Below, piece by piece: positions 3 to 63,857 of a DNA stretch of 64,000 nt. Both the position numbers and the translations under genes were made by a program. The notes below the pieces were generated by a model that saw only the letters and a program-made list of their open reading frames with translations, had not been told where the DNA came from and ran no database searches. This DNA is from Clostridia bacterium. GTDB taxonomy: Bacteria > Bacillota > Clostridia > TANB77 > CAG-465. The stretch is from the NCBI GenBank assembly GCA_017534305.1, contig JAFWCU010000001.1, positions 186,001-250,000 of the forward strand, in the 5' to 3' direction. Every line of letters begins with the position of its first letter. Positions within the stretch are counted from its first letter, which is position 1.

Positions 3-3000
3 ACTGGACTTGCTTATATTCCAAAATATTATAAAGAGGAAGATAAGAATGGATTTGGTTTCTACAATGTACAAATAGAGTTATTACAAATGACTAGTAC
101 TCAAAATCCAACAACAACTATAGATGTTATGGTTAACGTTGACGGAATGCCTGGTGAGTATGCAAAATCTGGTAAAGCAACACTTAAAGGTATTGCAACA
201 GATTTTGGTGTTAAAATAGCTTTAGATGATGAAGCAATTAAAAATACTTATGCTGAAAACATAAGGGTTAAAGTTAATGGTGTATACGATGAAGAATGGT
301 ATTATTTTGATAGCGAAGGTATTGTTCAAATTCAATTATCACCTAACACAATTAACTCATTAGAAATTGAAATTAATCCAGAAAATGCAGAAACATATCT
401 ATCTCGTTTAGAAGATACTGCAAACTTTACTGGCCAAGAAACTCATATTAATTATAACCCTGATAATATGACAGTTAAAACTGAAGCTGGTACTTGGACT
501 TTTGAGGATGATCCTGTAGTTGGACAATCTTATATTTTAAATGCTGGAAATAGTTCTACAGGAAGTAGAAATTCTCCATTCTATGATGTATATTATGCTT
601 CTGAACAAAGTGGTAGATATGGTGTCTATATAGATAGACCAAATGGTGGAGATACTTGGAATGCTCTATCTAGAAGAATTATTCAAGGTACTAATGATTT
701 TAACTTAAGTAATTTAAATGAGTCTGGTGGTATGATTCAACACGTTGTTGTATTTAACCAAACAGTAGAACAAAATGGTGTTTCAATACCTGCTGGTACA
801 ACTATTCACTTGAGATGTTCTCATGGTGGTGTTCCTGTAGATAATACTGGATGGAACATGCAATATATTGATGGTGCAAATAGACCTACAGCTTATTCAT
901 TACTTATTAGAGTTTTAGATGTTCAAGAAGAATATCTTGTAGTTGGTCTTGCAACTAACGAATTATATACACAAAACGGTGCTGCTATTTGTAAAATCAG
1001 ATATAAGTCTGATGGCGGTGGATTTATTCACCTACACAAAACTGACGTAGATACAGGAGATGCTAAAAATGGTGATGCTGTTCGTGTAAGTGCTACTTAT
1101 GGCGTATGGCAAGGATCAGAGCTGATAACAACTGTTACTACAGATAATAATGGTAATGCTGTTACTGAAAAAATTAAAAAAGGTACATATTCAATTAGAG
1201 AAATATCTGCTCCTGTTGGATATAACCTATCTAATGATACATTTACTGTAGAAATTACATCAGATAACAAAGAGCCACTTGTAACAGTTACTGAAAAAGT
1301 AAAAGAAAATGACTTAATAATTAAAAAAGATATTGAAGCTACATCTAATACTGAACAAAAAGCTTTAGATGAGTGTCAATTTACTGCAACTTTAATATCT
1401 GATAGATCTAAAGTATATACAAGTGAACGTACTGCAGAAGGTGAATATACAATTAGAAACCTTCCATATGGTACTTATGAGGTTGTTGAATCTCAAACAA
1501 ATAAATACTCTTTAACTTGTGATAAATTCAATGTATTTATTGAAAAAGATAGAAGTGAAAGAGGTGCTTATGGCGCTGCAGATGGACAATATGAAACAAG
1601 TAAATTAGCTCAAAATCCAAATAGAACTCAATGGACTGATGCTCAAGGACATCTTGTAGATATAGCTAAAGTTATGGTAATTAATATCCATAAAGTAGAT
1701 TATGATAAAGATGAAAACGATCCTAAAACATATATGCAAGGTGACGCAAAACTAGAAGGCGCTGTATATGAAATATATAAATTCAATGAGGAAACTCAAG
1801 ATTACACAGACTATGTATATGATATAACAGTAGATCATATGGATGATGGTTATTGGACAGCTACATCTGGTGAATTACTTGTTGGAAAATATATGGTAAA
1901 AGAAAAAGTTAAATCTGAAGAAGAAATTGACGGAGTAACTTACCAATATTCTTATGCTAAAGGATATTTAGTAGATCCAGATCCTCATTATTTTGAACAA
2001 GTTCCTGAAGAACAAACTGAAAGAGTATCTCAACATTATGATATTTCAAGAGAAAAAGTTCAAAGAGGTAGAGTAACAATTACTAAATATGATGATGATA
2101 GAGATACAGATCCAAACCAAAATGATTCAGATAAAGTACCTTCAGCTGGAGCTAGATTAAGACTTACTCTTGTATCTAACCCTGAAATATACTATGAAGT
2201 TGTTTTAGATGATAATGGTGAAGGAGAATTCTTAGAAACAAATGATGGCGATGTTCATGTATCAACTGCAATTCATGATAGTTTAGCAGCTTATGCTCCT
2301 AATACTATTCCTTATGGTGAATATGAAATTACTGAAATAAAAGAAGCAGATGATACTGAAAGAGAAAGCTTCTTTGCACAACCAGAACCTGTTTCAATTA
2401 ATAAACAATGTGTTCATGAAAATAGAATTATTTCAGATAATCCTGTTCCAGTTTGGCTAAAACTTGTTAAGAAAGATGCTACAACAAATGTTACTGTTAG
2501 AGAAACAGGAGCAACATTTAGTGTATGGAATGTTAAAGAGAAAAGATTTGAAATGCAAAGAGTTTATCCTTCAGCTGTTGAAATTAGTGAATTTGAGACT
2601 AATGAAGAAGGATGGTTATATTTACCACAAAAACTTTATGCTGGAGACTATGTAATCTATGAAGTAGATGCTCCTGAAGGATATTATTTAGATGATGAAT
2701 ATAGACTTCCAGATGATCCAGCAGATTATGGTGTTGTTGGCGGAAAGAGAATTCATATAGACAAAGTTCTTACTGGACTAGCTGAAGATGCTGTAAATCC
2801 AGGTCATGTTGAAGTTGGTGAATTCCAATATGAATCTGCAATTCCAAATACACCATTATATATTAATATTAAAATTATTAAAACATCAGATAGATTAACT
2901 GGTGCTCAAGAAGGAACTGTAACTTATCCTACAACTCCAAATGAAGAAGTTGAAGTTGAAATGACTACTCCAGTATATACAGATGGAATTGGTCTTGGCG

Positions 3001-4766
3001 GAGTTAAATATGAAATCTATGCAGATCAAGATATTATTTCTCCTGACGGACAATTAAGATTTACTAATAATCAATTAGTAGATACAATTGTTACAGATCA
3101 AGACGGTATTGGTCAATCTAGAGATGATTTATTCCCTGGTAGATATAGAGTTGTAGAAGTAGAAGTTCCAGAAGGATATATTTTAGATAGAACTCCAAAA
3201 TATATTACTGCTGAAAACAATGATCAATATGTAAAATCAGCTACAGCTACACTTGAAATCACAGATGTAAGACAACATCTTGGATATAAATTTAAAAAGA
3301 TATTCAAACAATATAAATATGCTACTGGCGGTGAAAGAAAACACGCAGTATTTGGTATCTATACTAAAGATCCAATAAACAACTACTTAGGAGATAGAGT
3401 AATTGGACCAGATACCTTAGTAGACATATTAGTAGTTGATGGAGATAACTATGTTGAAACAACTACTGACTTACCAAATGGAAGATACTATGTAAGAGAA
3501 TTATATGTATCATATCCATATGCAATGAGTCAAGATACAGTAGACTTTACTTTAGCATTTAATGGAGATGGAGTAACTCCTAAGGTTGTAGTAGAAGGAC
3601 CTGAAATTGAAAATACTCCAGACTATGGATATGCTAAATTCATTAAATTATCTAAATCAATTAATGATAATATCATAATGAATGGTTCAGAACTTGATGA
3701 AGAAGGTTTAAATGAAAAATCTCTTGAAATATTAGAAGCAATTGCTAATATGACAAATGAAGAAGTTGCTGCATATATGATTGAAAATGGATATCAATTT
3801 GTTCCTGGTGCAAAATATGAAATTTGGTTAGATGAAGAGGGAACAAACAAACTTCAAGAAGTAAATCTTCAAACTGGTGATTTAAAAGTTGTAACATTTA
3901 CAACAAATGAATCTGGTATATTAGAATTATTTGAAATTCCAAAAGGTGCATACTTCTTAAAAGAAGTTGAAGCTCCAGATGGATATGAAGTTCTAGATGA
4001 AGTTGTTCCATTTACAATTACAAGTTCAAATCCAGAAACAACATTATATCAAGCAATTTTTGATGAGAGTGTTAAAACAACATTCTTACATAAAACAGAT
4101 ATATTCACTGGTGAAAACGTACCAGATTGTACATTTGAAATAACAGATGAATCAGGAAAAGTTATATTAAAAGCTACTACAGATAAAGATGGTTTAGCAT
4201 GGATTCCAAACGATGCATTCAAACCATATAAAGATGTAGAAAATCCTAAATTCTATTATACAGAGCTTGAGGCTCCAGATGTATATAAAGAAGATGGAAG
4301 ATTATATAAACTAAATACTGAACCTCATGAATTTACTGGTACATTTGATGAAGAAACTGGAGTATTTACTACTGATCTTCATGAAGTAGAAAACTACAGA
4401 CCAACAACAAATGTTAAATTCGTTAAAACAGATGAAGAATCTAACTTAGTTCCAAATTGTAAATTTGAACTAAAGAGTGAAGAAGAAAATCTTTACTATA
4501 AAACTGGTGTAACAGACGAAAATGGTATCTATGTATTTGAAGATGTACCACAAGGATGGTATACATATACAGAGCTTGAAGCTCCAGAACAATATGATCT
4601 AGATACAACTCCACATAGAGTATATGTAACAGGAGATGAGATGATTATAGACTTCGTAAATACAGGAGATATTCCAGTAGTTGCAATAGCTTGCTTAGCA
4701 GTAGTATGTATTGCAGGTGTTGCATTTGTTACAATAAGAAAATTTAAACTAGCTAAAAACAACTAG
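3..4766 (+). CDS. Multi-domain Cna-B/SpaA-type surface protein, 5' end missing
   Basis: The reading frame is open from base 3 without an upstream stop, so this is the C-terminal 1587 residues of a larger protein. The first ATG in the window (position 90) has no ribosome binding site and is probably internal. The C-terminal three quarters consists of roughly ten beta-sandwich repeats of the Cna-B/SpaA kind. Each ends in the family signature of an acidic residue followed by A-P-x-G-Y, for example REISAPVGY, YEVDAPEGYY, LKEVEAPDGY and YTELEAPEQY. Such domains usually carry Lys-Asn isopeptide bonds and form stalks of adhesins or pilins. The protein ends in NTGDIP, a hydrophobic segment and the basic tail RKFKLAKNN. 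This resembles a sortase signal but lacks the LP of LPxTG. A strong terminator follows. The ligand cannot be told from the sequence. Confidence 0.85.
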   Translation, partial: TGLAYIPKYYKEEDKNGFGFYNVQIELLQMTSTQNPTTTIDVMVNVDGMPGEYAKSGKATLKGIATDFGVKIALDDEAIKNTYAENIRVKVNGVYDEEWYYFDSEGIVQIQLSPNTINSLEIEINPENAETYLSRLEDTANFTGQETHINYNPDNMTVKTEAGTWTFEDDPVVGQSYILNAGNSSTGSRNSPFYDVYYASEQSGRYGVYIDRPNGGDTWNALSRRIIQGTNDFNLSNLNESGGMIQHVVVFNQTVEQNGVSIPAGTTIHLRCSHGGVPVDNTGWNMQYIDGANRPTAYSLLIRVLDVQEEYLVVGLATNELYTQNGAAICKIRYKSDGGGFIHLHKTDVDTGDAKNGDAVRVSATYGVWQGSELITTVTTDNNGNAVTEKIKKGTYSIREISAPVGYNLSNDTFTVEITSDNKEPLVTVTEKVKENDLIIKKDIEATSNTEQKALDECQFTATLISDRSKVYTSERTAEGEYTIRNLPYGTYEVVESQTNKYSLTCDKFNVFIEKDRSERGAYGAADGQYETSKLAQNPNRTQWTDAQGHLVDIAKVMVINIHKVDYDKDENDPKTYMQGDAKLEGAVYEIYKFNEETQDYTDYVYDITVDHMDDGYWTATSGELLVGKYMVKEKVKSEEEIDGVTYQYSYAKGYLVDPDPHYFEQVPEEQTERVSQHYDISREKVQRGRVTITKYDDDRDTDPNQNDSDKVPSAGARLRLTLVSNPEIYYEVVLDDNGEGEFLETNDGDVHVSTAIHDSLAAYAPNTIPYGEYEITEIKEADDTERESFFAQPEPVSINKQCVHENRIISDNPVPVWLKLVKKDATTNVTVRETGATFSVWNVKEKRFEMQRVYPSAVEISEFETNEEGWLYLPQKLYAGDYVIYEVDAPEGYYLDDEYRLPDDPADYGVVGGKRIHIDKVLTGLAEDAVNPGHVEVGEFQYESAIPNTPLYINIKIIKTSDRLTGAQEGTVTYPTTPNEEVEVEMTTPVYTDGIGLGGVKYEIYADQDIISPDGQLRFTNNQLVDTIVTDQDGIGQSRDDLFPGRYRVVEVEVPEGYILDRTPKYITAENNDQYVKSATATLEITDVRQHLGYKFKKIFKQYKYATGGERKHAVFGIYTKDPINNYLGDRVIGPDTLVDILVVDGDNYVETTTDLPNGRYYVRELYVSYPYAMSQDTVDFTLAFNGDGVTPKVVVEGPEIENTPDYGYAKFIKLSKSINDNIIMNGSELDEEGLNEKSLEILEAIANMTNEEVAAYMIENGYQFVPGAKYEIWLDEEGTNKLQEVNLQTGDLKVVTFTTNESGILELFEIPKGAYFLKEVEAPDGYEVLDEVVPFTITSSNPETTLYQAIFDESVKTTFLHKTDIFTGENVPDCTFEITDESGKVILKATTDKDGLAWIPNDAFKPYKDVENPKFYYTELEAPDVYKEDGRLYKLNTEPHEFTGTFDEETGVFTTDLHEVENYRPTTNVKFVKTDEESNLVPNCKFELKSEEENLYYKTGVTDENGIYVFEDVPQGWYTYTELEAPEQYDLDTTPHRVYVTGDEMIIDFVNTGDIPVVAIACLAVVCIAGVAFVTIRKFKLAKNN

Positions 4767-6469: not shown

Positions 6470-6499
6470 TTGACAATTTTTGTACATTTGTGCTAAAAT
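6470..6499 (+). promoter_or_regulatory. Promoter of the tetR-acyltransferase-GT8 operon
   Basis: TTGACA (6470-6475), an 18-base spacer, and an extended -10 TGCTAAAAT ending at 6499. No clear TetR palindrome was recognised, although GTAC occurs at both sides of the -10 (6482 and 6502). Confidence 0.8.
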
Positions 6500-6528
6500 T
6501 AGTACGAGTGTATTAAAGGAGATTTTGT

Positions 6529-7098
6529 ATGAGATTATCTTTTAGAAAAAAGTATAATACATCTGAAAAAATTAAAGAGGCAACTCTTAATATTTTGGCA
6601 AGGGATGGGTATGAAGATATATCTATGAGAAAAATTGCTAAAGAGGCAGATGTTGCACTTGGACAACTTACATATTATTACAAAACAAAGAATAATCTAA
6701 TAGTAGCTGTAGTAGATGAAGTATTAGATATGTTTTATGACGGCTTAAAAGAAAGAGTAAGTTCAAGTGAGAATAAAACTGAAGAAATAGTAAGTAGTAT
6801 AGAAAATGTAATTAATGAAGATTCACAAGTAGATCAATTATTAATTACAGTTATTTCTATGGCACAAGTTAATAAAAGATTAAATAAAAGGCTAAATAAA
6901 TTCTATGAGGACATTTTAGGCTTTGTTTCTTCATGTCTAAGACAAGATAATCCTACACTTTCAGAGAATGACTCAAATATGAAGGCACGCCTTCTTGCAG
7001 GTTCTGCAATAGAGGGAATGATAGAAAAATCTATCGGTATTAACAACTTAAATAATTCTCTTATTCGCGAGACTGCTAATACTATGAGGGAAAACTAA
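6529..7098 (+). CDS. TetR-family transcriptional regulator
   Basis: 189 residues, the normal TetR size. The N-terminal helix-turn-helix (about residues 10-60) contains the family pattern ILARDGYEDISMRKIAKEAD followed by the recognition-helix segment LGQLTYYYKTKNNLI. The remainder is a helical ligand/dimer domain without recognisable specificity. It is first in an operon: its TAA overlaps the ATG of the following acyltransferase by one base, so the two are translationally coupled. It most likely autoregulates this operon and may respond to a lipid or lipid precursor; both points are inference from position. A KRLNKRLNK repeat at about residues 115-124 is unusual but in frame. Confidence 0.9.
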   Translation: MRLSFRKKYNTSEKIKEATLNILARDGYEDISMRKIAKEADVALGQLTYYYKTKNNLIVAVVDEVLDMFYDGLKERVSSSENKTEEIVSSIENVINEDSQVDQLLITVISMAQVNKRLNKRLNKFYEDILGFVSSCLRQDNPTLSENDSNMKARLLAGSAIEGMIEKSIGINNLNNSLIRETANTMREN

Positions 7099-7886
7099 TG
7101 GAAAAGAAAATATATTATTATACAGACGAGTTAAATGATGATTTTGCAGAAAAATCCATTGAACCAATTAAAATAGATGAAAATTATAAATATATACATA
7201 AGAATGTATTTTGGAAAATAGGTTCATTTATTGTTTATAGACTTATTGCAATGCCACTTGCATTTGTTTATGCAAAATGTGTTCATAAACTTAAAATTGT
7301 TGGAAAAGAAAAACTTAAAGAATCAAAAAATAAAGGATACTTTACTTACCAAAACCATACACAGGTTATATTAGATACTTTAATGCCAACACTTATTAAT
7401 TTTCCAAGAAAAGCACATATTGTTGCACATCCAGATAATGTATCTATACCTATTCTTGGAGGTTTTAATAAAATGATGGGAGGTTTTCCAATTCCATCAG
7501 ACATTAAAACAACAAAAAATTTCTTAAGTGCAATGGAACTTTTTTTAAAGCATAAGAATGTTATTGCTGTATATCCTGAGGCACATGTTTGGCCATATTA
7601 CACAAAGATTAGAAACTTTGTTGCTACATCTTTTAAATATCCACTAAAATATAAAGTTCCTGCTTATGCATATACAACTACATATAAGGATAGACCTGGT
7701 AAAAAACCTCAAATAGTTGTATATATTGATGGACCTTTTTATGCAGATGAAAACTTATCTTCAAAAAAGGCTGAACAAGATCTTCGCGACAGAGTATATA
7801 ATACAATGCTTGAAAGAAGTAAAAATTCAAATGTAGAGTTTTATACATATATAAAACAAGAGGCAAAGGAGGAAACATATGATTAA
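7098..7886 (+). CDS. PlsC-like lysophospholipid acyltransferase homologue
   Basis: A 262-residue membrane-associated protein. A hydrophobic segment near residues 42-60 precedes the acyltransferase core. The catalytic block reads QNHTQVILD near residue 85, with five instead of the usual four residues between His and Asp (HX5D rather than HX4D). YPEAHVWPYYTK (about residue 159) replaces the FPEGTRS block of AGPAT enzymes. The family normally transfers an acyl group to a lysolipid or other hydroxyl acceptor at the inner membrane leaflet. It overlaps tetR by one base and the next GT8 gene by eight bases. Together with the downstream glycosyltransferases it probably builds an acylated glycolipid; the exact acceptor is unknown. 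Confidence 0.78.
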   Translation: MEKKIYYYTDELNDDFAEKSIEPIKIDENYKYIHKNVFWKIGSFIVYRLIAMPLAFVYAKCVHKLKIVGKEKLKESKNKGYFTYQNHTQVILDTLMPTLINFPRKAHIVAHPDNVSIPILGGFNKMMGGFPIPSDIKTTKNFLSAMELFLKHKNVIAVYPEAHVWPYYTKIRNFVATSFKYPLKYKVPAYAYTTTYKDRPGKKPQIVVYIDGPFYADENLSSKKAEQDLRDRVYNTMLERSKNSNVEFYTYIKQEAKEETYD

Positions 7887-8757
7887 CCTTATGTTTTGTG
7901 GTAATGACAAAGTAATTGATGGAATGATAATATCACTACTTTCAATTGTTAAACATTGTAAAAAACCACTTAATGTTTTTATTTTAACTATGGATTTACA
8001 TGAGTTAAATGAAAAATACATGCCAATAAATGAGAAGCATATAGCTGTTTTAGATAAAATACTAAAACAAGGAAATGAAAAGAGTCAAATTCATCTAATA
8101 GATATTACTAAATATTTTAAAGAAGAAATGATGAATAGTGCAAATATAGAGACACATTACACTCCATATATTTTAGTAAGACTATATTCAGATAAAGTTG
8201 AAGAATTACCAGATAAAGTTTTATATCTAGATAGTGATCTTGTAATATATAAAAATATAGAACCGCTTTTTGATACTAAAGTTGATGGATATCATTTTGC
8301 TGCTGCAGGAGATTATCTTGGACAATTCTTTATAAATAAAAAATATATAAACTCTGGTGTTCTTTTGATGAATATGAAGAAAATGAGAGAAGAAGATATA
8401 TTTCCAAAGTGTAGAAAAATGGTTGTAGAAAAGAAAATGCTTCTTCCAGATCAAACAGCACTAAATGAGTATTGTACAGAAATTAAGTACTTACCAAGTA
8501 AATATAACGAGCAAAATAAAAGACAAGAAGATACTGTAATTAGACACTTTAGTATGTGTATGAAATTTATGGTACCATTAAGTCTAAAAAAACGTAAAAT
8601 GATGAATAAATATAGACCAGTTTTAAGATTTTTACCAATAGTAAAATTCTTAAATATAAAGCCATGGCATATTGAAGGTATTCATGAAATATATAAGATT
8701 CATGATTTTGATGATATTTTAGAAGAATATAAACAACTTAAAGGAGAGTTAGAATAA
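7879..8757 (+). CDS. Glycosyltransferase family 8 protein
   Basis: 292 residues with the GT-A fold signature of family GT8, retaining enzymes that use UDP-hexose. It starts NLMFCGNDKVIDGMIISLLS and has the DxD metal/nucleotide motif in VLYLDSDLVIYK near residue 118. The NSGVLLMNMKKMRE block and LLPDQTALNEYC follow, both typical of the family. The C-terminal HxxGxxKPW block of GT8 enzymes is not evident, only a lone H in RHFSMCMKF, so acceptor or donor binding may differ. Its start overlaps the upstream acyltransferase by eight bases and its stop overlaps the next gene by one base, showing tight co-translation. The sugar and acceptor cannot be read from the sequence. Confidence 0.88.
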   Translation: MINLMFCGNDKVIDGMIISLLSIVKHCKKPLNVFILTMDLHELNEKYMPINEKHIAVLDKILKQGNEKSQIHLIDITKYFKEEMMNSANIETHYTPYILVRLYSDKVEELPDKVLYLDSDLVIYKNIEPLFDTKVDGYHFAAAGDYLGQFFINKKYINSGVLLMNMKKMREEDIFPKCRKMVVEKKMLLPDQTALNEYCTEIKYLPSKYNEQNKRQEDTVIRHFSMCMKFMVPLSLKKRKMMNKYRPVLRFLPIVKFLNIKPWHIEGIHEIYKIHDFDDILEEYKQLKGELE

Positions 8758-10580
8758 TGAAGAAACAAACTATACCAATATTTTTTGCATCAGATAATAA
8801 TTATGTACCATTTTTAGCTACTGCTATGAAGTCATTAATAGTTAATGCTAGTCCTAAATATAATTATGAAATAAATGTATTGCAAACTGGCATTAGTGAA
8901 AAAAATCAACAAAAAATGAGAAATATGGCAGAAGATAATTTTAAAATTAGATTTATAGATATTGAGCCTTTACTTACAGATATTAAAGAAAGACTTAAGT
9001 TAAGACTTAGGGATTATTATTCTATTTCAATATACTATAGACTATTTATTGAATCATTATTTAAACAATATCAAAAAGTATTATATTTAGATGCAGATAT
9101 TGTAGTGGAAGGAGATGTATCTGAACTATATAATGCAGACATAGGGGATAATCTCTTAGGAGTAGTTCAAGATGGTGTTGTACAAGCAGATAAAAGACTT
9201 ATTGATTCATTTACTCGCTCATTAGGTTTTGATGCTAATGATTATTTTAACTCAGGCGTTCTTGTAATGAATTTAAAAGAGTTTAGAAAAGAAATGATTC
9301 TAGACAAGTTTTTATATCTATTAGAACATTATAATTTTGATACAATCGCTCCAGACCAAGACTACTTAAATGTTTTATGCCATGGCAAAGTTAAATATCT
9401 AGAAAAGGGCTGGGATGTAATGCCTAATGCAGACAAAGAAATAGATATGGATCACTTGTATATAATACATTATAATATGTTTAAAAAACCTTGGAATTAT
9501 GATTGTACTCCACTTGTAGAAAACTTTAGAAAATATGCTAAAATGACTCCTTATGCAAGAGCTATTGAAGATATGAGAATGGATTATACTGAAGATAAAA
9601 AAGAAGCTGAAGATCTTGCATATGCTAAAATGGTTATGCGTAATGATGATATTGCTAATTCTACTGTAAATTTTGGTAAAGTTATAACACAAGATTTTTG
9701 GAATACAGATAGAGTAGGTGAAATGATGGAGAAGAATAAAGGAAGAATTAAAGTTATTGAAAATATTGAAAGAGCAATTAAAGAAGGAAACTACAACAAA
9801 AAAGTTGAAGAGGGCGATCCTGTAATTACTCAAAAACAAAGAGAAAAATATATTCAAAACTATGATTCTACTAAAAAGAAAATTAGACATAAAGTAGAAT
9901 TTGAAATAGCTAACGCTATTACTAATACTATTACTAGACAAATAAACAAAAATACTGAAATAGTAGGTCTTGAAAACTTAGAAGGAATAGAAGGTGGAGC
10001 TATAGTTACATCTAACCATTTCAATTTTGTAGATACTACTATCATTAAGAACATGATGAACAATATAAAAAAATCTAGAAAATATGCAATTATTGTTCAA
10101 GAAACAAACTTCTTAATGAAAGGATATTTGGGTTGGTTAATTAGAAATAATAAAACAATTCCTTTAAGTTTAGATCACAAATATTTAAGTGAGAATTTTT
10201 TACCTACACTTGAAACACTACTTAATAGAGGTTATTATATTTTAATTTATCCAGAACAAGAAATGTGGTATAACTATAGAAAGCCAAGAAATCCAATGCC
10301 AGGAGCATATCACTATGCAACTAAATTTAATGTGCCAATTATTCCATGTTTTACGGAAATACAAGATATGGACAAAGAAGATAGAGAAGGATTTAAAAAA
10401 TCTAAATATATTTTACATATTATGCCACCAATATATCCAGATCCAAATAAATCTCTAAAAGAAAACAAAGAAGAAATGAGAAAAAAAGATTTTGAATATA
10501 AAGTAGCTGCATATGAAAAAGCATATAATAGAAAATATGATGAAGATTATGACAGAACTAAAGATATAGCTGGATGGTAA
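8757..10580 (+). CDS. GT8 glycosyltransferase fused to a PlsC-like acyltransferase
   Basis: A 607-residue fusion. Residues 1 to about 270 form a GT8 glycosyltransferase with DxD in LYLDADIVVEGD (near 111), NSGVLVMNLKEF, APDQDYLN, and the C-terminal HYNMFKKPW block that the preceding GT8 lacks. A charged helical linker covers about 270-385. Residues about 390-580 are a PlsC-like acyltransferase with a proper HX4D motif (SNHFNFVD near 420). The block YPEQEMWYNYRKPRNP (near 498) matches the YPEAHVWPYYTK block of the separate acyltransferase upstream. Joining glycosyl transfer and acylation in one chain suggests a product that is both glycosylated and acylated, such as a membrane glycolipid or lipoteichoic-acid-like anchor. 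This is last in the tetR operon and is followed by a terminator. Confidence 0.88.
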   Translation: MKKQTIPIFFASDNNYVPFLATAMKSLIVNASPKYNYEINVLQTGISEKNQQKMRNMAEDNFKIRFIDIEPLLTDIKERLKLRLRDYYSISIYYRLFIESLFKQYQKVLYLDADIVVEGDVSELYNADIGDNLLGVVQDGVVQADKRLIDSFTRSLGFDANDYFNSGVLVMNLKEFRKEMILDKFLYLLEHYNFDTIAPDQDYLNVLCHGKVKYLEKGWDVMPNADKEIDMDHLYIIHYNMFKKPWNYDCTPLVENFRKYAKMTPYARAIEDMRMDYTEDKKEAEDLAYAKMVMRNDDIANSTVNFGKVITQDFWNTDRVGEMMEKNKGRIKVIENIERAIKEGNYNKKVEEGDPVITQKQREKYIQNYDSTKKKIRHKVEFEIANAITNTITRQINKNTEIVGLENLEGIEGGAIVTSNHFNFVDTTIIKNMMNNIKKSRKYAIIVQETNFLMKGYLGWLIRNNKTIPLSLDHKYLSENFLPTLETLLNRGYYILIYPEQEMWYNYRKPRNPMPGAYHYATKFNVPIIPCFTEIQDMDKEDREGFKKSKYILHIMPPIYPDPNKSLKENKEEMRKKDFEYKVAAYEKAYNRKYDEDYDRTKDIAGW

Positions 10581-10581
10581 T

Positions 10582-10604
10582 AAAAGGGGATTATTCCCCT
10601 TTTT
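10582..10604 (+). terminator. Terminator of the GT8/acyltransferase operon
   Basis: Stem AAAAGGGGA/TCCCCTTTT with a 4-base loop, starting just after the stop codon. The terminal T run is part of the stem's 3' arm. Read-through into the next gene, which has its ribosome binding site 7 bases later, is possible. Confidence 0.8.
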
Positions 10605-10627: not shown

Positions 10628-11389
10628 ATGATTACTGAAAAATGCTCTATAATGTCAAATAGAGAAAATGAAGAGGTGTTTTTAATTAAATATCTACCAG
10701 ATAACAAAAAAATTGATGAAGTTATTATTGCAATACATGGATTTGGTAGTACAAAACATAGCGATACTATTACGATGCTAGCAGAAAAAATTAGTGAACA
10801 TGGCTATGCAGTTTTTGCACTAGATTTACCAGCTCATGGCGAATCTAAAACAGAAATATTAACAATAGATAAGGCAATTAACTATTTGTTAGATTTAGAA
10901 GATTATATAAAACAAGAATATAAAGAGGCAAAAATAGGATATTTTGCATCTAGCTTTGGTGCATATTTAACTCTACTTAGACTAAATAAACTTGAAAAAG
11001 AAGAAGAAATAGATAAAGTGGTACTTAGATGTAGCGCTATAGATATGAAAAATATTTTTAAAAATAATTTGCTAGATGAAGGATATGAGAAGTTTGAAAA
11101 GCAAGGTTATGCAGATTTGGGATTTGCTAGAAAAGTACATTGTACTAAAGATTTTTTAAGTGATTTAGAAAAGAACGATGTATTTAATAATTATCATTCA
11201 AATCATAAAGTACTACTTGTTCATGGAACAGATGATGAGTGTGCTCCATATGAAGATGCAGTAAGATTTGAAGAAAAGCATGAAAACATAACACTTAAAA
11301 CTATAGTTGGAGCAGGACATAGGTTCCTTAATCCTGGTGAAATTGAAAAAGCAATTGAAATTGCTTCAAATTACTATATAGAAAAATAA
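10628..11389 (+). CDS. Alpha/beta hydrolase (serine hydrolase family)
   Basis: 253 residues with an alpha/beta-hydrolase layout. The oxyanion-hole strand IIAIHGFGST is near residue 36. LDLPAHGES is near 60. The nucleophile elbow YFASSFGAY is near 105, where Ala replaces the first Gly of GxSxG. The acid is in VHGTDDECAP near 200 and the catalytic His in GAGHRF near 229. It resembles S33/monoglyceride-lipase type hydrolases. It has its own GGAGG site, but no separate promoter was seen between it and the preceding terminator. It may therefore be transcribed by read-through from the glycosyltransferase/acyltransferase operon, which would suit a lipid or ester substrate. The substrate is unknown. 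Confidence 0.85.
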   Translation: MITEKCSIMSNRENEEVFLIKYLPDNKKIDEVIIAIHGFGSTKHSDTITMLAEKISEHGYAVFALDLPAHGESKTEILTIDKAINYLLDLEDYIKQEYKEAKIGYFASSFGAYLTLLRLNKLEKEEEIDKVVLRCSAIDMKNIFKNNLLDEGYEKFEKQGYADLGFARKVHCTKDFLSDLEKNDVFNNYHSNHKVLLVHGTDDECAPYEDAVRFEEKHENITLKTIVGAGHRFLNPGEIEKAIEIASNYYIEK

Positions 11390-36610: not shown

Positions 36611-37894
36611 ATGGATACTAAAGAGATTGAGATATCTCATAATATAGATAACAAAAAAAGTAGAAGTAAGATTAAGTATATAGCACTTGCTTCAATTGTT
36701 GGTATTGTTGCGATTTCTTCAGTTATAGTTATTAATTTATCTTCAAAAAAAGGTAAAGATGTAACTGATGTAGAGGATGATTCATATTTAATATCTAATG
36801 AGAGTGATACTTATGAAGGCTTTAATTATTCTCAAGAAAAAGTAACTTTAGAACAACAAGGCTTTTTTTATAACTATTCTAAAAATCAAGAAGGAAGCAA
36901 AATAGATGTTTCATATTATAAAGTTGATGGGTTAATAGACAATAATTTAGAAGATAAGATTAATACATATCTAAAACTTACTGTAGAAGCTATGTATGAT
37001 AAAAATAATCTTCTTGATTCAAATGTTTTATATGATCATATAAGTAATTATACTGATGTTTATATTTTTAACAATGTATTATCTACTATGTATGTAGAAG
37101 AATTTTGTGATGTTGAAGGAAATATTCAAACAAAGTATTCGAGCGTAAATATAAATTTAAAAGATTTGAAAGAATTTGATTTAAAAGATGTATTTAGACA
37201 AAATACCGATATAAAATCTATAATTCCAGATTATAATGAAAATATGGTATTTAGTGTTTCTCCTAAATTTGTGTACTATGTAAATAGTAAAGGAATCATT
37301 CAAAAAACAAATCTTTATTATTATAAAGATCAAGTTGCTATTTATAAACGTTTTTTTGATAATACTAGACTTTTTGAAAAAACATTTAATGCTTATCCAT
37401 ATGTTTTTACAACTAAAAAGTTCGTAGAATCAGATGTATATGGTATGCAAGATGGTAATGTATTTATTGATACTTGTGATACTCTAGTTGATAGCAATTA
37501 TAATAAAGAAATATTGTTAGCTGCGTATAAATTATACAAAGATGGAGTAAATAAAGCTAAGAATTTAGCTTATTCAAATCCCAAAAATAGATATTTGGTA
37601 CAGCTTGTGTTAACAATAGATAAGGATACTTTAAATAATTCGTATATTATTAAAGTTAAGTATAATGCATATAAGGTTCAAAAGAATTTCTTTATTGAAC
37701 ATATAGATGAATTTATGGTTGCGTCTGAAAATAAATCTATGAAAGAAATTGATGTTATTAGTATTTTAGACAATCCACCTATAGATGGTCAAAACTATAT
37801 AGATAGTGTAGCTAATGATACTTTAAAAATTGAAGTGAATGAAAATGGTGAAGAAATTATTCAAAATACAAATAATATTTCTGGAATTAGTTAA
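36611..37894 (+). CDS. Membrane-anchored protein resembling RsiV/DUF3298 proteins
   Basis: 427 residues: about 25 cytoplasmic residues (basic), one transmembrane helix (IALASIVGIVAISSVIVINL, about 28-47) and a large extracytoplasmic domain. The sensor part looks like the DUF3298/RsiV fold, with a block resembling the family's loading motif (NINLKDLKEFDLKDVFRQNTD). The resemblance is weak. RsiV-like proteins are anti-sigma factors cleaved after lysozyme binding, but no sigma-factor gene lies beside this one and the cytoplasmic part is too short to be a recognisable anti-sigma domain. It has an AGGAGG-like site, follows the structured RNA's terminator by 77 bases and has its own terminator. Confidence 0.6.
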   Translation: MDTKEIEISHNIDNKKSRSKIKYIALASIVGIVAISSVIVINLSSKKGKDVTDVEDDSYLISNESDTYEGFNYSQEKVTLEQQGFFYNYSKNQEGSKIDVSYYKVDGLIDNNLEDKINTYLKLTVEAMYDKNNLLDSNVLYDHISNYTDVYIFNNVLSTMYVEEFCDVEGNIQTKYSSVNINLKDLKEFDLKDVFRQNTDIKSIIPDYNENMVFSVSPKFVYYVNSKGIIQKTNLYYYKDQVAIYKRFFDNTRLFEKTFNAYPYVFTTKKFVESDVYGMQDGNVFIDTCDTLVDSNYNKEILLAAYKLYKDGVNKAKNLAYSNPKNRYLVQLVLTIDKDTLNNSYIIKVKYNAYKVQKNFFIEHIDEFMVASENKSMKEIDVISILDNPPIDGQNYIDSVANDTLKIEVNENGEEIIQNTNNISGIS

Positions 37895-60293: not shown

Positions 60294-63200
60294 ATGGAAA
60301 AGAATAAGAATAAAAGTTTGAAGTTTTTAACTCTTTTTATAGCCTTTCTAATTATCACTATAGTGAATAATTGTAATAAAGAACTTTATGCTGAAGGTAC
60401 TCGTGATTTAGCCGCGACACCAGATAGCAATGGAGTTTGGAGCTATAATAAGGGGTATAGACCATTTTTTGATTGTTGTAGTAAGACAACTGCCGGTATT
60501 AAAAGAGAGCAAGAATTATATGTTTATGCCAAAAAAGGTGAGACAATTCTTTTTGGAAGCTCTGTATACAATACAGTGTCAACTTTAAATGACGGCCATG
60601 AAGTTGTTGTTATACTACCTAATGGTAGAAGAGAAAATTTTGATATTACAAATGGTGGCGTTGGTAATATTAATACTCAAGTTAAGGAATTAAATGGTCC
60701 AAATTATGGAGATAAAACTGAAGGATATGATCCTTTATCTATCTATATTGATGGTACAGAACATCAAGAAGGTATATACACATTTAAGTTTAGCTCAAGA
60801 AACTATAGAGAGATTCAATATTATTCTTTCCTTAAAAATGTTGATGATAGTGTATTGAATCCAGCAAATGCAACTGGTCAAATTGCCTCTCTAGATATTA
60901 CTGTTATTACTGAAGAAAATGGTGTTTACACTGAACATCCAGGTAGAACATGGGCAGATTATCTTACTTTAAATACTGGTATAAACCAAAGCCCAAACCT
61001 ATATTCTGAAGTTTATGTATTAACAACTGATGGATATATTTATGAAGTTGATTTAAATGGTACAGATCCATATGGATTTATTTTCTTTGCTACAAATAGA
61101 GGTCTAATTGATACTTCTAATAATACTTCTTTATATATGTCTGTATTTGCAAAGAATAATGAGTGTTCAAATCCTACATATACAAAATTTGGTGAAGTAG
61201 TACCAGTTCAATTCCATAGACCTAATGCATCAAATACTAAATATGATAAAACGTATAAAATATTCTTTAATAATCCTTCAGCGGATTTACCACAATATAT
61301 AAAACCTAAAGCATATGAACCTGGTTCTATTACTAATATCTATTTTAGAGGTATAAATTCAACTGAAGGACTTGGAAGAGTCGGAGAAGGTGGATATTTC
61401 CACTTCCATGTTGAAAATGCAACATCTTACGAATTAAAATTAGATTTTGATGATATGACTGCTGCTAAAAAAGACGATCAAGGTAATTATGTTTTAGATG
61501 AAGAAGGACATAAAATACAAGAGAGAATTCAGGCTGTAGATAGATTAAATAGAAAAATATTTACTGATCCTGATGGAAATGAAGTTGCATTTAATAAGTA
61601 TGAATTAAAAAATTTACCAAATCCTGAAGATTATACACCTGTATACATTGGTGGCGTAGTATACTTAAGAAACTCATGTACAGATGGAGAAAATAATGTT
61701 TACTGGGATGGACGTGATGGAAATGGTCATTACTTACCAGAAGGCAAGTATGGTGGTGAAGATTCAAAATTTAAATTAACTGTTACACCAAAAGCTGGTG
61801 AGTATCACTTTGTAATGCTAGACGTTGAAAATAACGTTAATGGTACAAAGATTAAAATGATTGGAGATATATACGATTCTAACGAGGATCTAGTTGAAAT
61901 TAGTGATGAAGTTAGAAGTACAGTTTATTACAATAATAATAACCCTGAATTATTACTAAAAGGTCAACAAGAGAAAAAGCCTAGTGCTAGACCATATTGT
62001 TCACCAGATCATGATAAAACAACAGATGGTGTTGTAACTTTAGGTAGAGTTGGTGCTTCTCCTTATGTTGGAAATCTTGGAGATTCAAACCTAATGGATC
62101 TTTGGACATATATTAAAAGACAAACAGATGATTTGGATATTGCAACTCTTGCAGAATTCACTTTAGTTGCACAACCTGAACCTGATCCTGATGATCCGGA
62201 TTATCCTAATTATCCTCCTTCTGTAAAAGGTACTATAACTGGTAAGGTATTTTTTGATTCACAAGATGATGGCGGATCAATGAATTTATCTGAAGGAGAT
62301 TATGCATTAGATGAAGTAGAAGTTAAACTATATATGTTTACTTTAGATCCAGATACCGGAGATTTTGTTGAAGAAGAATTATATACTACAACAACTGATG
62401 CTCTGGGAGATTACTATTTTGCAAATTTGGATTTAAATGATGAAAATTCATATTATGAGGTTAGAGTATCAAGCCCAAATAGTTACGCTCACTGTACTAC
62501 AGATAATCAAACAATTTCTAATATAAAAATTTTATATGATAAAGATAATCCTGATGATATTAGTCAATTAGATATTAAAAATGATGATGTTGGATTTTGC
62601 TGGTCAGTAAAAACTATAACATTAAATAAACAATGGCTTCTTACTGATGTGCTTCCTAAGAAAATAAGAATTAATGTTTTGGCTTTTGATAATCAAGGAC
62701 GTCATATACTTCAAGATGATGGCCAAGGTAATCTTCAACCAGTATATGATGTATTAGGAGTTGAAGTTACTGCAGCAAATGGTTGGGTAACATCTCTACA
62801 TTTAAATGAAAAAGATACAGATGGTAATTATATTACATATTATCCTGAGTATGAAGAAGTTCTTACTGTAGATGGCCTAGGAAATGAAGTATGGTTAACA
62901 GCAAATGAAGCAGGTTACGATTATGATATAGTACCTCCTTTAAATGATGTTACTCCTATTACTTCAAAGATAGCATATAATATTGTTAATAGAAAAAGAT
63001 GTATTGAGGTAGAAAAAGTTCTAGATAGACGTGTAGATAAAGATGAAGGCGAAACATTCTCATTTAAACTAATTGATAATACTGATTCTACAGAAGAAAT
63101 AGTTACTATTAACATACCAAAAGGTGAATATAAAGAATCTATAATTATTTATGATGTAGTAAGTGATCATAACTATACTATAAAAGAAGTAAATATTCCT

Positions 63201-63857
63201 GGTGAATATGATTTTGATCCAGATAATAGTTATATGATAGTAAATGACGTTGATCAATCAACACCTACACTAAATAATGAAGAATATCAATTTTCTTTTG
63301 AATATGAATCTTCAAACAAATACAAAATATGTTTCCATAACGATTATAAAAGATCTAATTTAATAGTATCTAAAACTGTTTTAGGTAACAAGGGCGATAC
63401 TACAAAAGATTTTGAATATACTTTTAATTTTAATACTGCTGAATCATTTACTGGTATTAAAACATTAAAAGATGGTACAAATACAGAAGTTACAATTAAA
63501 AATAATTCTAAATTTACACTAAAAGATGGTGAAATGATTGTAATACAAAACCTTCCATATCACTATACATATAGTGTTGAAGAAGGCGACTACACATCAT
63601 TAGATGGTTATACAACAACTGTAAATGATGTTGAATCAAATAGATATGAAGGTGTAGTTGAGCTTGATGATCAAACGTTAGAGTTTAAAAACACACTAGA
63701 CGCAGACTCTCTTTTAGGAGTTGAGACCGAAGAAACTCACTCATTTAAGATAGTTTATGTTTTAGTAATGTTTTTAACTATATATTTAATATTATTTGTT
63801 AGAAAAGCAAAGCGAAAAGAATTTGCTAAAGAAACAGATAATAATTTTAAAAGATAG
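60294..63857 (+). CDS. Large secreted surface protein with SdrD-B/Cna-B-type domains
   Basis: 1187 residues. A signal peptide (FLTLFIAFLIITIVNN, about 10-33) leads to an about 600-residue N-terminal region without clear family, likely the exposed binding part. Residues about 640-760 are a SdrD-B-like domain (GTITGKVFFDSQDDGG through YYFANLDLN). Two Cna-B/DUF7601-like segments follow (about 900-1015 and 1020-1135: RCIEVEKVL and RSNLIVSKTVLGNKGDTTKDF). The C-terminus is a membrane helix (IVYVLVMFLTIYLILFVRK, about 1151-1169) with a basic tail, but no LPxTG-like motif precedes it. It lies between a pseudo-signal-peptidase gene and another secreted protein, so a pilus or fibre tip/shaft role is likely. 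Confidence 0.85.
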   Translation: MEKNKNKSLKFLTLFIAFLIITIVNNCNKELYAEGTRDLAATPDSNGVWSYNKGYRPFFDCCSKTTAGIKREQELYVYAKKGETILFGSSVYNTVSTLNDGHEVVVILPNGRRENFDITNGGVGNINTQVKELNGPNYGDKTEGYDPLSIYIDGTEHQEGIYTFKFSSRNYREIQYYSFLKNVDDSVLNPANATGQIASLDITVITEENGVYTEHPGRTWADYLTLNTGINQSPNLYSEVYVLTTDGYIYEVDLNGTDPYGFIFFATNRGLIDTSNNTSLYMSVFAKNNECSNPTYTKFGEVVPVQFHRPNASNTKYDKTYKIFFNNPSADLPQYIKPKAYEPGSITNIYFRGINSTEGLGRVGEGGYFHFHVENATSYELKLDFDDMTAAKKDDQGNYVLDEEGHKIQERIQAVDRLNRKIFTDPDGNEVAFNKYELKNLPNPEDYTPVYIGGVVYLRNSCTDGENNVYWDGRDGNGHYLPEGKYGGEDSKFKLTVTPKAGEYHFVMLDVENNVNGTKIKMIGDIYDSNEDLVEISDEVRSTVYYNNNNPELLLKGQQEKKPSARPYCSPDHDKTTDGVVTLGRVGASPYVGNLGDSNLMDLWTYIKRQTDDLDIATLAEFTLVAQPEPDPDDPDYPNYPPSVKGTITGKVFFDSQDDGGSMNLSEGDYALDEVEVKLYMFTLDPDTGDFVEEELYTTTTDALGDYYFANLDLNDENSYYEVRVSSPNSYAHCTTDNQTISNIKILYDKDNPDDISQLDIKNDDVGFCWSVKTITLNKQWLLTDVLPKKIRINVLAFDNQGRHILQDDGQGNLQPVYDVLGVEVTAANGWVTSLHLNEKDTDGNYITYYPEYEEVLTVDGLGNEVWLTANEAGYDYDIVPPLNDVTPITSKIAYNIVNRKRCIEVEKVLDRRVDKDEGETFSFKLIDNTDSTEEIVTINIPKGEYKESIIIYDVVSDHNYTIKEVNIPGEYDFDPDNSYMIVNDVDQSTPTLNNEEYQFSFEYESSNKYKICFHNDYKRSNLIVSKTVLGNKGDTTKDFEYTFNFNTAESFTGIKTLKDGTNTEVTIKNNSKFTLKDGEMIVIQNLPYHYTYSVEEGDYTSLDGYTTTVNDVESNRYEGVVELDDQTLEFKNTLDADSLLGVETEETHSFKIVYVLVMFLTIYLILFVRKAKRKEFAKETDNNFKR

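Follow-up and report, generated by a model that had tools for sequence, protein, structure and literature searches.

A TetR-linked cassette of two glycosyltransferases and two acyltransferases in a Clostridia genome is a variant of the gene set beside horA on brewing plasmids

Introduction

In beer-spoiling bacteria, two acyltransferases and a family-8 glycosyltransferase (GT8) are reported to flank the hop-resistance gene horA (PMC4394401), and for six of seven L. brevis strains that spoil beer the genes listed on plasmids include two glycosyltransferases and two acyltransferases (PMC6533708). The genes around horA in P. claussenii have been termed phospholipid or cell-wall genes, with transcript levels in beer more than 3-fold above that of horA (PMC3765258). 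The accessible portions of these reports name no biochemistry, pathway or product for the flanking genes (PMC3765258, PMC4394401), and in brewing microbiology these conserved, beer-transcribed neighbors of horA had no assigned product. Here we analyze a stretch of 64,000 nucleotides (the window) from a Clostridia bacterium (GTDB lineage Bacteria; Bacillota; Clostridia; TANB77; CAG-465; assembly GCA_017534305.1, 251,804-base contig JAFWCU010000001.1, positions 186,001 to 250,000), in which four genes at 6529-10580 of the forward strand encode a TetR-family regulator, an acyltransferase (AT1), a GT8 enzyme (GT8a), and a fusion of a second GT8 enzyme (GT8b) with a second acyltransferase (AT2). 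A first-pass annotation of this DNA knew of no named pathway with such a combination, but the combination itself is not new: the same four enzymes flank horA on brewing plasmids, as far as the accessible text of the reports describes them (PMC3765258, PMC4394401). Within the same bounds, the window cassette is a TetR-switched, fused variant of the set known as the unexplained neighbors of horA.

Three other systems invite comparison. C. difficile, another clostridial species, makes glycolipids with HexSDF/UgtA/UgtB, and its hex operon includes a gene for HexF, an MprF-like flippase-domain protein of the kind that neighbors the present cassette at many loci; HexS carries the annotation of a monogalactosyldiacylglycerol (MGDG) synthase, and none of the three hex genes, as described in the sections accessible, encodes an acyltransferase (PMC10128005, PMC11898633). 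The window cassette differs from hex in its GT8 enzymes, its two acyltransferases, and the absence of PF06925, the MGDG synthase family, from the genome that carries it. In the glucosedilipid operon glcABC of Rouxiella, the PlsC-family enzyme GlcB acylates a glucolipid, which is a precedent for sugar-lipid acylation; that operon differs in having three genes and, in the description available, no GT8, the partners of GlcB being the GNAT-type GlcA and the HAD phosphatase GlcC (PMC12299268). The mycobacterial phosphatidylinositol mannoside (PIM) acyltransferase PatA shares its fold class with AT1, at 10-12% identity. In PIM synthesis PatA works alongside GT4-type mannosyltransferases and attaches an acyl group to a mannose residue of a glycolipid. 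No glycolipid system pairing GT8 with PlsC was found in the literature searched for that pairing, a search that left subscription journals mostly outside.

Results and Discussion

Architecture and active sites

The four genes lie in series on the plus strand: the TetR-family regulator (6529..7098, 189 aa; PF00440 (TetR_N), 34.2 bits), the PlsC/LPLAT-type acyltransferase AT1 (7098..7886, 262 aa; PF01553, 28.0 bits), GT8a (7879..8757, 292 aa; PF01501, 73.3 bits), and the GT8b-AT2 fusion (8757..10580, 607 aa), in which residues 7-249 (8775-9503) form the GT8 domain (PF01501, 172.3 bits) and residues 401-532 (9957-10352) the acyltransferase domain (PF01553, 55.2 bits). The Pfam matches of all four exceed the curated cut-offs, which are 24.3 bits for GT8 and 23 bits for PF01553. 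The overlaps of 1, 8 and 1 bases and the GT8 identity of the third and fourth genes are as the first-pass annotation described them. The translational coupling that it also named is read from these overlaps alone, and each of the four start codons is preceded by its own purine-rich, ribosome-binding-like stretch.

The active-site residues of all four enzymes are invariant in the rows examined, which are those of domains scoring at least 200 bits, the window's own row included. DXD, the metal-binding motif of glycosyltransferases, is found as D118/D120 in 92 of 92 rows for GT8a and as D112/D114 in 96 of 96 for GT8b, and together with the PF01501 scores it places both enzymes in family 8. AT1 carries the motifs NHTQVILD and PEAHVW, with N86, H87, T88, D93, and P160-E161-A162-H163 conserved in all 91 rows, while AT2 carries NHFxxxD, with N110-H111-F112 and D116 (fragment numbering) in all 99. 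The spacing from histidine to aspartate is HX5D in 91/91 rows of AT1 and HX4D in 99/99 rows of AT2; HX4D is the usual catalytic spacing of PlsC/LPLAT acyltransferases. Both proteins belong to the PlsC/LPLAT group by PF01553 score and fold, and in that respect the likeness noted earlier between the fused acyltransferase and the product of the second gene stands, but they align over 195 aa with 27.7% identity (E 3.5e-15) and are distant relatives from different subfamilies, not recent duplicates. An AlphaFold2 model of AT1 (predicted local distance difference test score, pLDDT, 89) has Foldseek matches to PlsC (5kym), PatA and LpxM, at low sequence identity. The glycosyltransferase part of the fusion matches WbbM and LgtC; the model of the whole fusion, with a mean pLDDT of 73.7 and a predicted template-modeling score (pTM) of 0.55, is too weak for domain packing.

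The cassette on brewing plasmids

When the fusion, AT1 and GT8a were used separately as tblastn queries against plasmids, the same 18 records headed each list (compared by eye). Seventeen are from lactic acid bacteria (LAB) of seven species, 15 of these having a beer or brewery source, and the eighteenth is a Roseburia plasmid from a pig, with the order AT1-GT8a-GT8b-AT2. Three LAB records were viewed whole and read GT8a, an ABC transporter on the opposite strand, AT1, GT8b, AT2; the view of a fourth covered the GT8a end only. Each enzyme subtype was confirmed by profile in two LAB records and the Roseburia plasmid, including HX5D in AT1. The GT8a, AT1, GT8b and AT2 homologs of the brewing set (P. 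claussenii pPECL-8 and relatives) are 34.8, 37.5, 39.2 and 39.4% identical to those of the window, respectively, and their acyltransferase motifs read NHTQPLGD (HX5D) in AT1 and NHFSPID in AT2. In a 56-row tree, made of 53 rows of the 106-row tree discussed below and three plasmids, the GT8b and AT2 sequences of all three plasmids, two from LAB and one from Roseburia, group within the window's own clade, that of gene order type A (AT1 first). The ABC transporter of the LAB records matches MsbA-type models below their cut-offs, and we infer that it is HorA.

The horA-flanking genes of P. claussenii pPECL-8 and its relatives thus resemble the window in encoding all four enzymes within one stretch, and the three LAB records share with it the order AT1-GT8b-AT2. 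They differ in being plasmid-borne, in having the ABC transporter between GT8a and AT1, in keeping GT8b and AT2 as separate genes, and, as far as the viewed stretches extend, in showing no annotated TetR gene next to the cassette. The window copy, in contrast, has a TetR gene with its own operator and a fused last gene; it is flanked by hisS and an alpha/beta hydrolase gene, and 6529-10580 holds no ABC transporter gene, whether between GT8a and AT1 or elsewhere.

Distribution and gene order

With the fusion as query at E 1e-40, matches were obtained in 105 of the 385 genomes of the order and in 22 of its 48 genera. At class level an 18-row fusion alignment matched 18 of 391 genomes at E 1e-60, 7 belonging to the same order and 11 lying outside it, and in a phylum-wide draw at E 1e-50 the single match among 398 genomes was the window's own. 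The cassette is spread broadly within the order, thinly in the class, and patchily everywhere.

The open reading frames (ORFs) of loci fetched around the homologs (given L-numbers, their genomes G-numbers) were classed with profiles built from 15 loci (8 for TetR). All four enzyme types occur together in 92 of the 117 loci, and part of the loci without the full set end at contig edges. Loci in which positions could be assigned to both AT1 and GT8b show two gene orders, one with AT1 first, as in the window (type A, 22 loci), the other with AT1 last (type B, 74 loci). The gene-order conservation on which the first-pass proposal depended is therefore present, in the form of a conserved set in two orders; the exact overlaps vary among loci and compact spacing is common. 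The four-enzyme set is not a product of chance.

Of 105 loci, 54 encode GT8b and AT2 in a single ORF and 51 in two, which makes fusion optional. On the 106-row tree the fusion state changes 10 times, with at least 5 of the changes forced by starred branches, and within a 25-row, mostly type A clade the fused form is confined to the window and L033, all other members being split. The GT8-PlsC fusion does recur in other genomes, as the 54 fused loci show, yet we do not regard it as the key novelty of the locus, because the tree switches back and forth between the fused and the split state. Parts of the module are duplicated in L104 (G321), which carries GT8a, GT8b, a GT8b-AT2 fusion, AT2 and AT1, an arrangement that may hint at how the fusion originated.

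Regulator and operator

A sigma-70-type promoter at 6470..6499 on the plus strand (TTGACA-18-TAAAAT, with TG before the -10 element) has 11 of 12 consensus matches and is the best of 44 candidates in the scan, a total close to the 38 that shuffling predicts. It sits between the stem-loop and T-run of hisS and the TetR start, and it is conserved together with a pair of tandem imperfect palindromes at 6479..6516 (6479-6496 and 6499-6516), which we propose as TetR operators; each palindrome is 18 bp, their starts are 20 bp apart, and they straddle the -10 element. The operator block could be aligned before TetR in nine of nine TetR-led loci, including those of eight relatives whose TetR proteins are 34-69% identical to the window's. 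A composite pattern built from these nine loci was searched for in 57 genomes and has exactly one copy in each of the nine source genomes; the remaining 48 gave no match, nor did a reversed control. The single-site pattern is found in the window's own genome (G000; 1.6 Mb, 40 contigs) only at this operator, twice, with one chance match in the reversed control, and 100 shuffles of the window gave no match to the operator pattern. At L126 and L127, which have a more distant TetR, the operator block was not matched. In L045 (4387-8573; G004), GT8a is found upstream of TetR and not behind AT1, with the operator kept in its place before TetR; the brewing plasmids, too, have GT8a separated from AT1.

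The palindrome arrangement predicts that TetR represses its own transcription and that its regulon is this operon alone. The best Protein Data Bank (PDB) matches of the regulator are 1vi0 (residues 7-169) and 3whb, Fatty acid metabolism regulator protein (residues 14-169); against the model for the Bacillus FadR equivalog (NF053878) it scores 63.9 bits with a cut-off of 200, and so is related to that protein without being its equivalog. Because the nearest solved relatives include a regulator of fatty-acid metabolism, the sensing of a lipid intermediate by TetR, suggested in the first-pass annotation, is plausible. The FapR palindrome, in the part of the description available, shares the left arm TTAGTAC with the proposed operator (PMC5028935). 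We do not claim a FapR-type operator, as the palindromes here are 18 bp and not 17 and the regulator belongs to the TetR family.

Genomic neighbors

Adjacent same-strand genes were compared with 84 same-strand control genes 5-6 places off, counting ORFs of 90 to 700 aa away from the stretch ends. Of 85 upstream neighbors, 32 are proteins with the MprF flippase domain (PF03706), as are 3 of 69 downstream neighbors and none of the controls, the control count having been made with our own profile of the family; the upstream excess gives a Fisher P of 1.3e-11, which is optimistic since related loci are not independent. A CrtO-type glycosyl-lipid acyltransferase is the downstream neighbor in 3 of 69 cases and the upstream one in L186; L107, L117 and L122 were rejected as CrtO-bearing loci because the neighbor there is DUF1064. 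A diacylglycerol kinase is the upstream neighbor in 3 of 85 cases. Lipid or sugar genes seen once each are a polysaccharide deacetylase (L046), an epimerase (L114), an MBOAT protein (L037) and a lipase-like protein (L123), and a seemingly GalE-like neighbor in L099 is actually a GH25 protein.

PF06925, the enzyme family of the UgtP/MGDG synthase route, has no match in the window's genome. At E 1e-6 the family is missing from 24 of the 28 genomes of the genus, including all 10 that carry the module, and present in only four; with the genus mostly lacking it, the cassette may be one of its glycolipid routes. Six other genomes of the order carry PF06925 and the module together. The cassette therefore does more than stand in for MGDG synthase, and mutual exclusion of the two routes is unsupported at the order level. 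Two module-free genomes of the same genus, at L051 (7348-10088) and L052 (6962-9702), encode a GT8-MGDG-synthase (PF06925/GT28) fusion followed by a distant AT1-like acyltransferase with the motif NHVLFLD (HX4D), possibly an alternative glycolipid pair.

Predicted product and alternatives

Two GT8 enzymes, two acyltransferases of the PlsC fold and a flippase-domain neighbor suggest a membrane lipid that bears both sugar and added acyl groups. The acylated glycolipid put forward in the first-pass annotation is the best-fitting product class, and we consider it probable that the cassette builds an acylated mono- or diglycosyl membrane lipid. In such a pathway, for which we infer the sugars, acyl sites, acceptor and order of steps, GT8a and GT8b, working at the inner leaflet, would each use a nucleotide-sugar to attach one sugar to an acceptor of the glycerolipid type, and AT1 and AT2 would move fatty acyl groups from acyl-CoA or acyl-acyl carrier protein (acyl-ACP) onto hydroxyls of the sugar, the glycerol or both. 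Where GT8b and AT2 are fused, the glycosylated intermediate may be handed directly to acylation. Outward transfer would fall to the MprF-flippase-domain protein in many Clostridia and possibly to the MsbA-like HorA in brewing lactobacilli. TetR, bound to both palindromes around the -10 element, would repress the operon until released by an acyl ligand, and the likely benefit would be a membrane less permeable to amphipathic stressors.

That the cassette and its transport partner constitute one glycolipid assembly-and-flip system with swappable exporters, the MprF-flippase-domain protein serving gut Clostridia and HorA serving brewing lactobacilli, is a bolder idea that we hold to be doubtful. 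If true, HorA, known for pumping hop compounds, would also or mainly flip an acylated glycolipid, and hop resistance would come partly from the lipid itself. The cassette standing alone across the Clostridia order, TetR-switched in one clade and with a flippase-domain neighbor at many loci, separates the four enzymes from horA and points to a product class.

Several observations weigh against an acylated glycolipid product. Within the genus the module is patchy, being present in 10 of 28 genomes, a count from which a short fragment in G013 and weak matches to other GT8 or AT1-like proteins are excluded. Outside the order, L180, L183, L185, L186 and L187 have GT8b and AT2 only, and GT8b is alone in L196 and in L190, the stretch fetched from G710, one of the 11 out-of-order genomes. 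In the window, the operon has no flippase gene beside it; the only PF03706 gene in the genome is on a different contig. The neighbors of the module are mostly housekeeping genes. None of the enzymes has a biochemically characterized close relative here, and the best PDB matches of the fusion's glycosyltransferase part, LgtC and WbbM, act on glycans, which makes a glycan acceptor possible. Lastly, G000 holds two PF01553 proteins besides AT1 and AT2, so that these are unlikely to be the ordinary PlsC; dispensable for ordinary phosphatidic acid, they could still make a special one.

The likeliest alternative, although we think it rather unlikely, is one in which AT1 and AT2 are lysophosphatidic or glycerol-phosphate acyltransferases feeding a dedicated pool of phosphatidic acid or diacylglycerol that the GT8 pair glycosylates, the sugars never being acylated. 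Both acyltransferases fall in the PlsC/AGPAT-like Pfam family, the nearest fold to AT1 is T. maritima PlsC, and a diacylglycerol kinase adjoins the module as the upstream neighbor in 3 of 85 cases. Set against this are the two spare PF01553 proteins, the HX5D spacing of AT1 that departs from the usual HX4D, and the structural comparison itself, in which PatA and LpxM, which acylate sugars, are about as close to AT1 as PlsC is.

A less probable alternative, and in our view an improbable one, is a surface polymer, the cassette making a glycolipid anchor for, or a decoration of, a teichoic-acid-like or capsular polymer. The resemblance of the glycosyltransferase part to the surface-glycan enzymes LgtC and WbbM would suit such a role, as would the labels of phospholipid or cell-wall genes that the accessible text of brewing papers gives to the homologs, but no polymerase, ligase or lipoteichoic acid (LTA) synthase family is among the repeated neighbors listed, and a decorating system would hardly be expected to have a pair of acyltransferases of its own. 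That the enzymes are unrelated and share only a location or a regulator, with no joint product, might account for the patchiness of the module and the varying outer neighbors, but it is strongly disfavored by linkage and can hardly be correct, given that 92 of 117 loci keep the four enzymes together, in either of two orders, that fusion has recurred (10 state changes in the tree, no fewer than 5 of them forced), and that the enzymes travel jointly on the same 18 plasmids.

Other features of the window

Downstream of the fusion gene lies a weak terminator-like stem-loop with a T-run (10586..10598, plus strand; 5-bp stem), one of two sites of that kind in the scan where 0.9 were expected, and then a gene for an alpha/beta hydrolase of 253 aa (10628..11389, plus strand; PF12146, 61.5 bits), a neighbor outside the conserved set. 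The hydrolase was rejected as a fifth member of the cassette because, among the tabulated loci, it was matched only in the near-identical L033, and because the terminator-like site separates it from the fusion gene. No Rfam families or tRNAs were found in the window. An ORF of 427 aa at 36611-37894 (plus strand) has no Pfam match at E 1e-4, and an 1187-aa protein at 60294-63857 (plus strand) has DUF7601, near its C-terminus, as its sole Pfam match. Upstream of hisS and the cassette, 90-4766 (plus strand) encodes a surface-type protein of 1558 aa with SpaA/prealbumin-like repeats in six stretches and a hydrophobic C-terminal segment.

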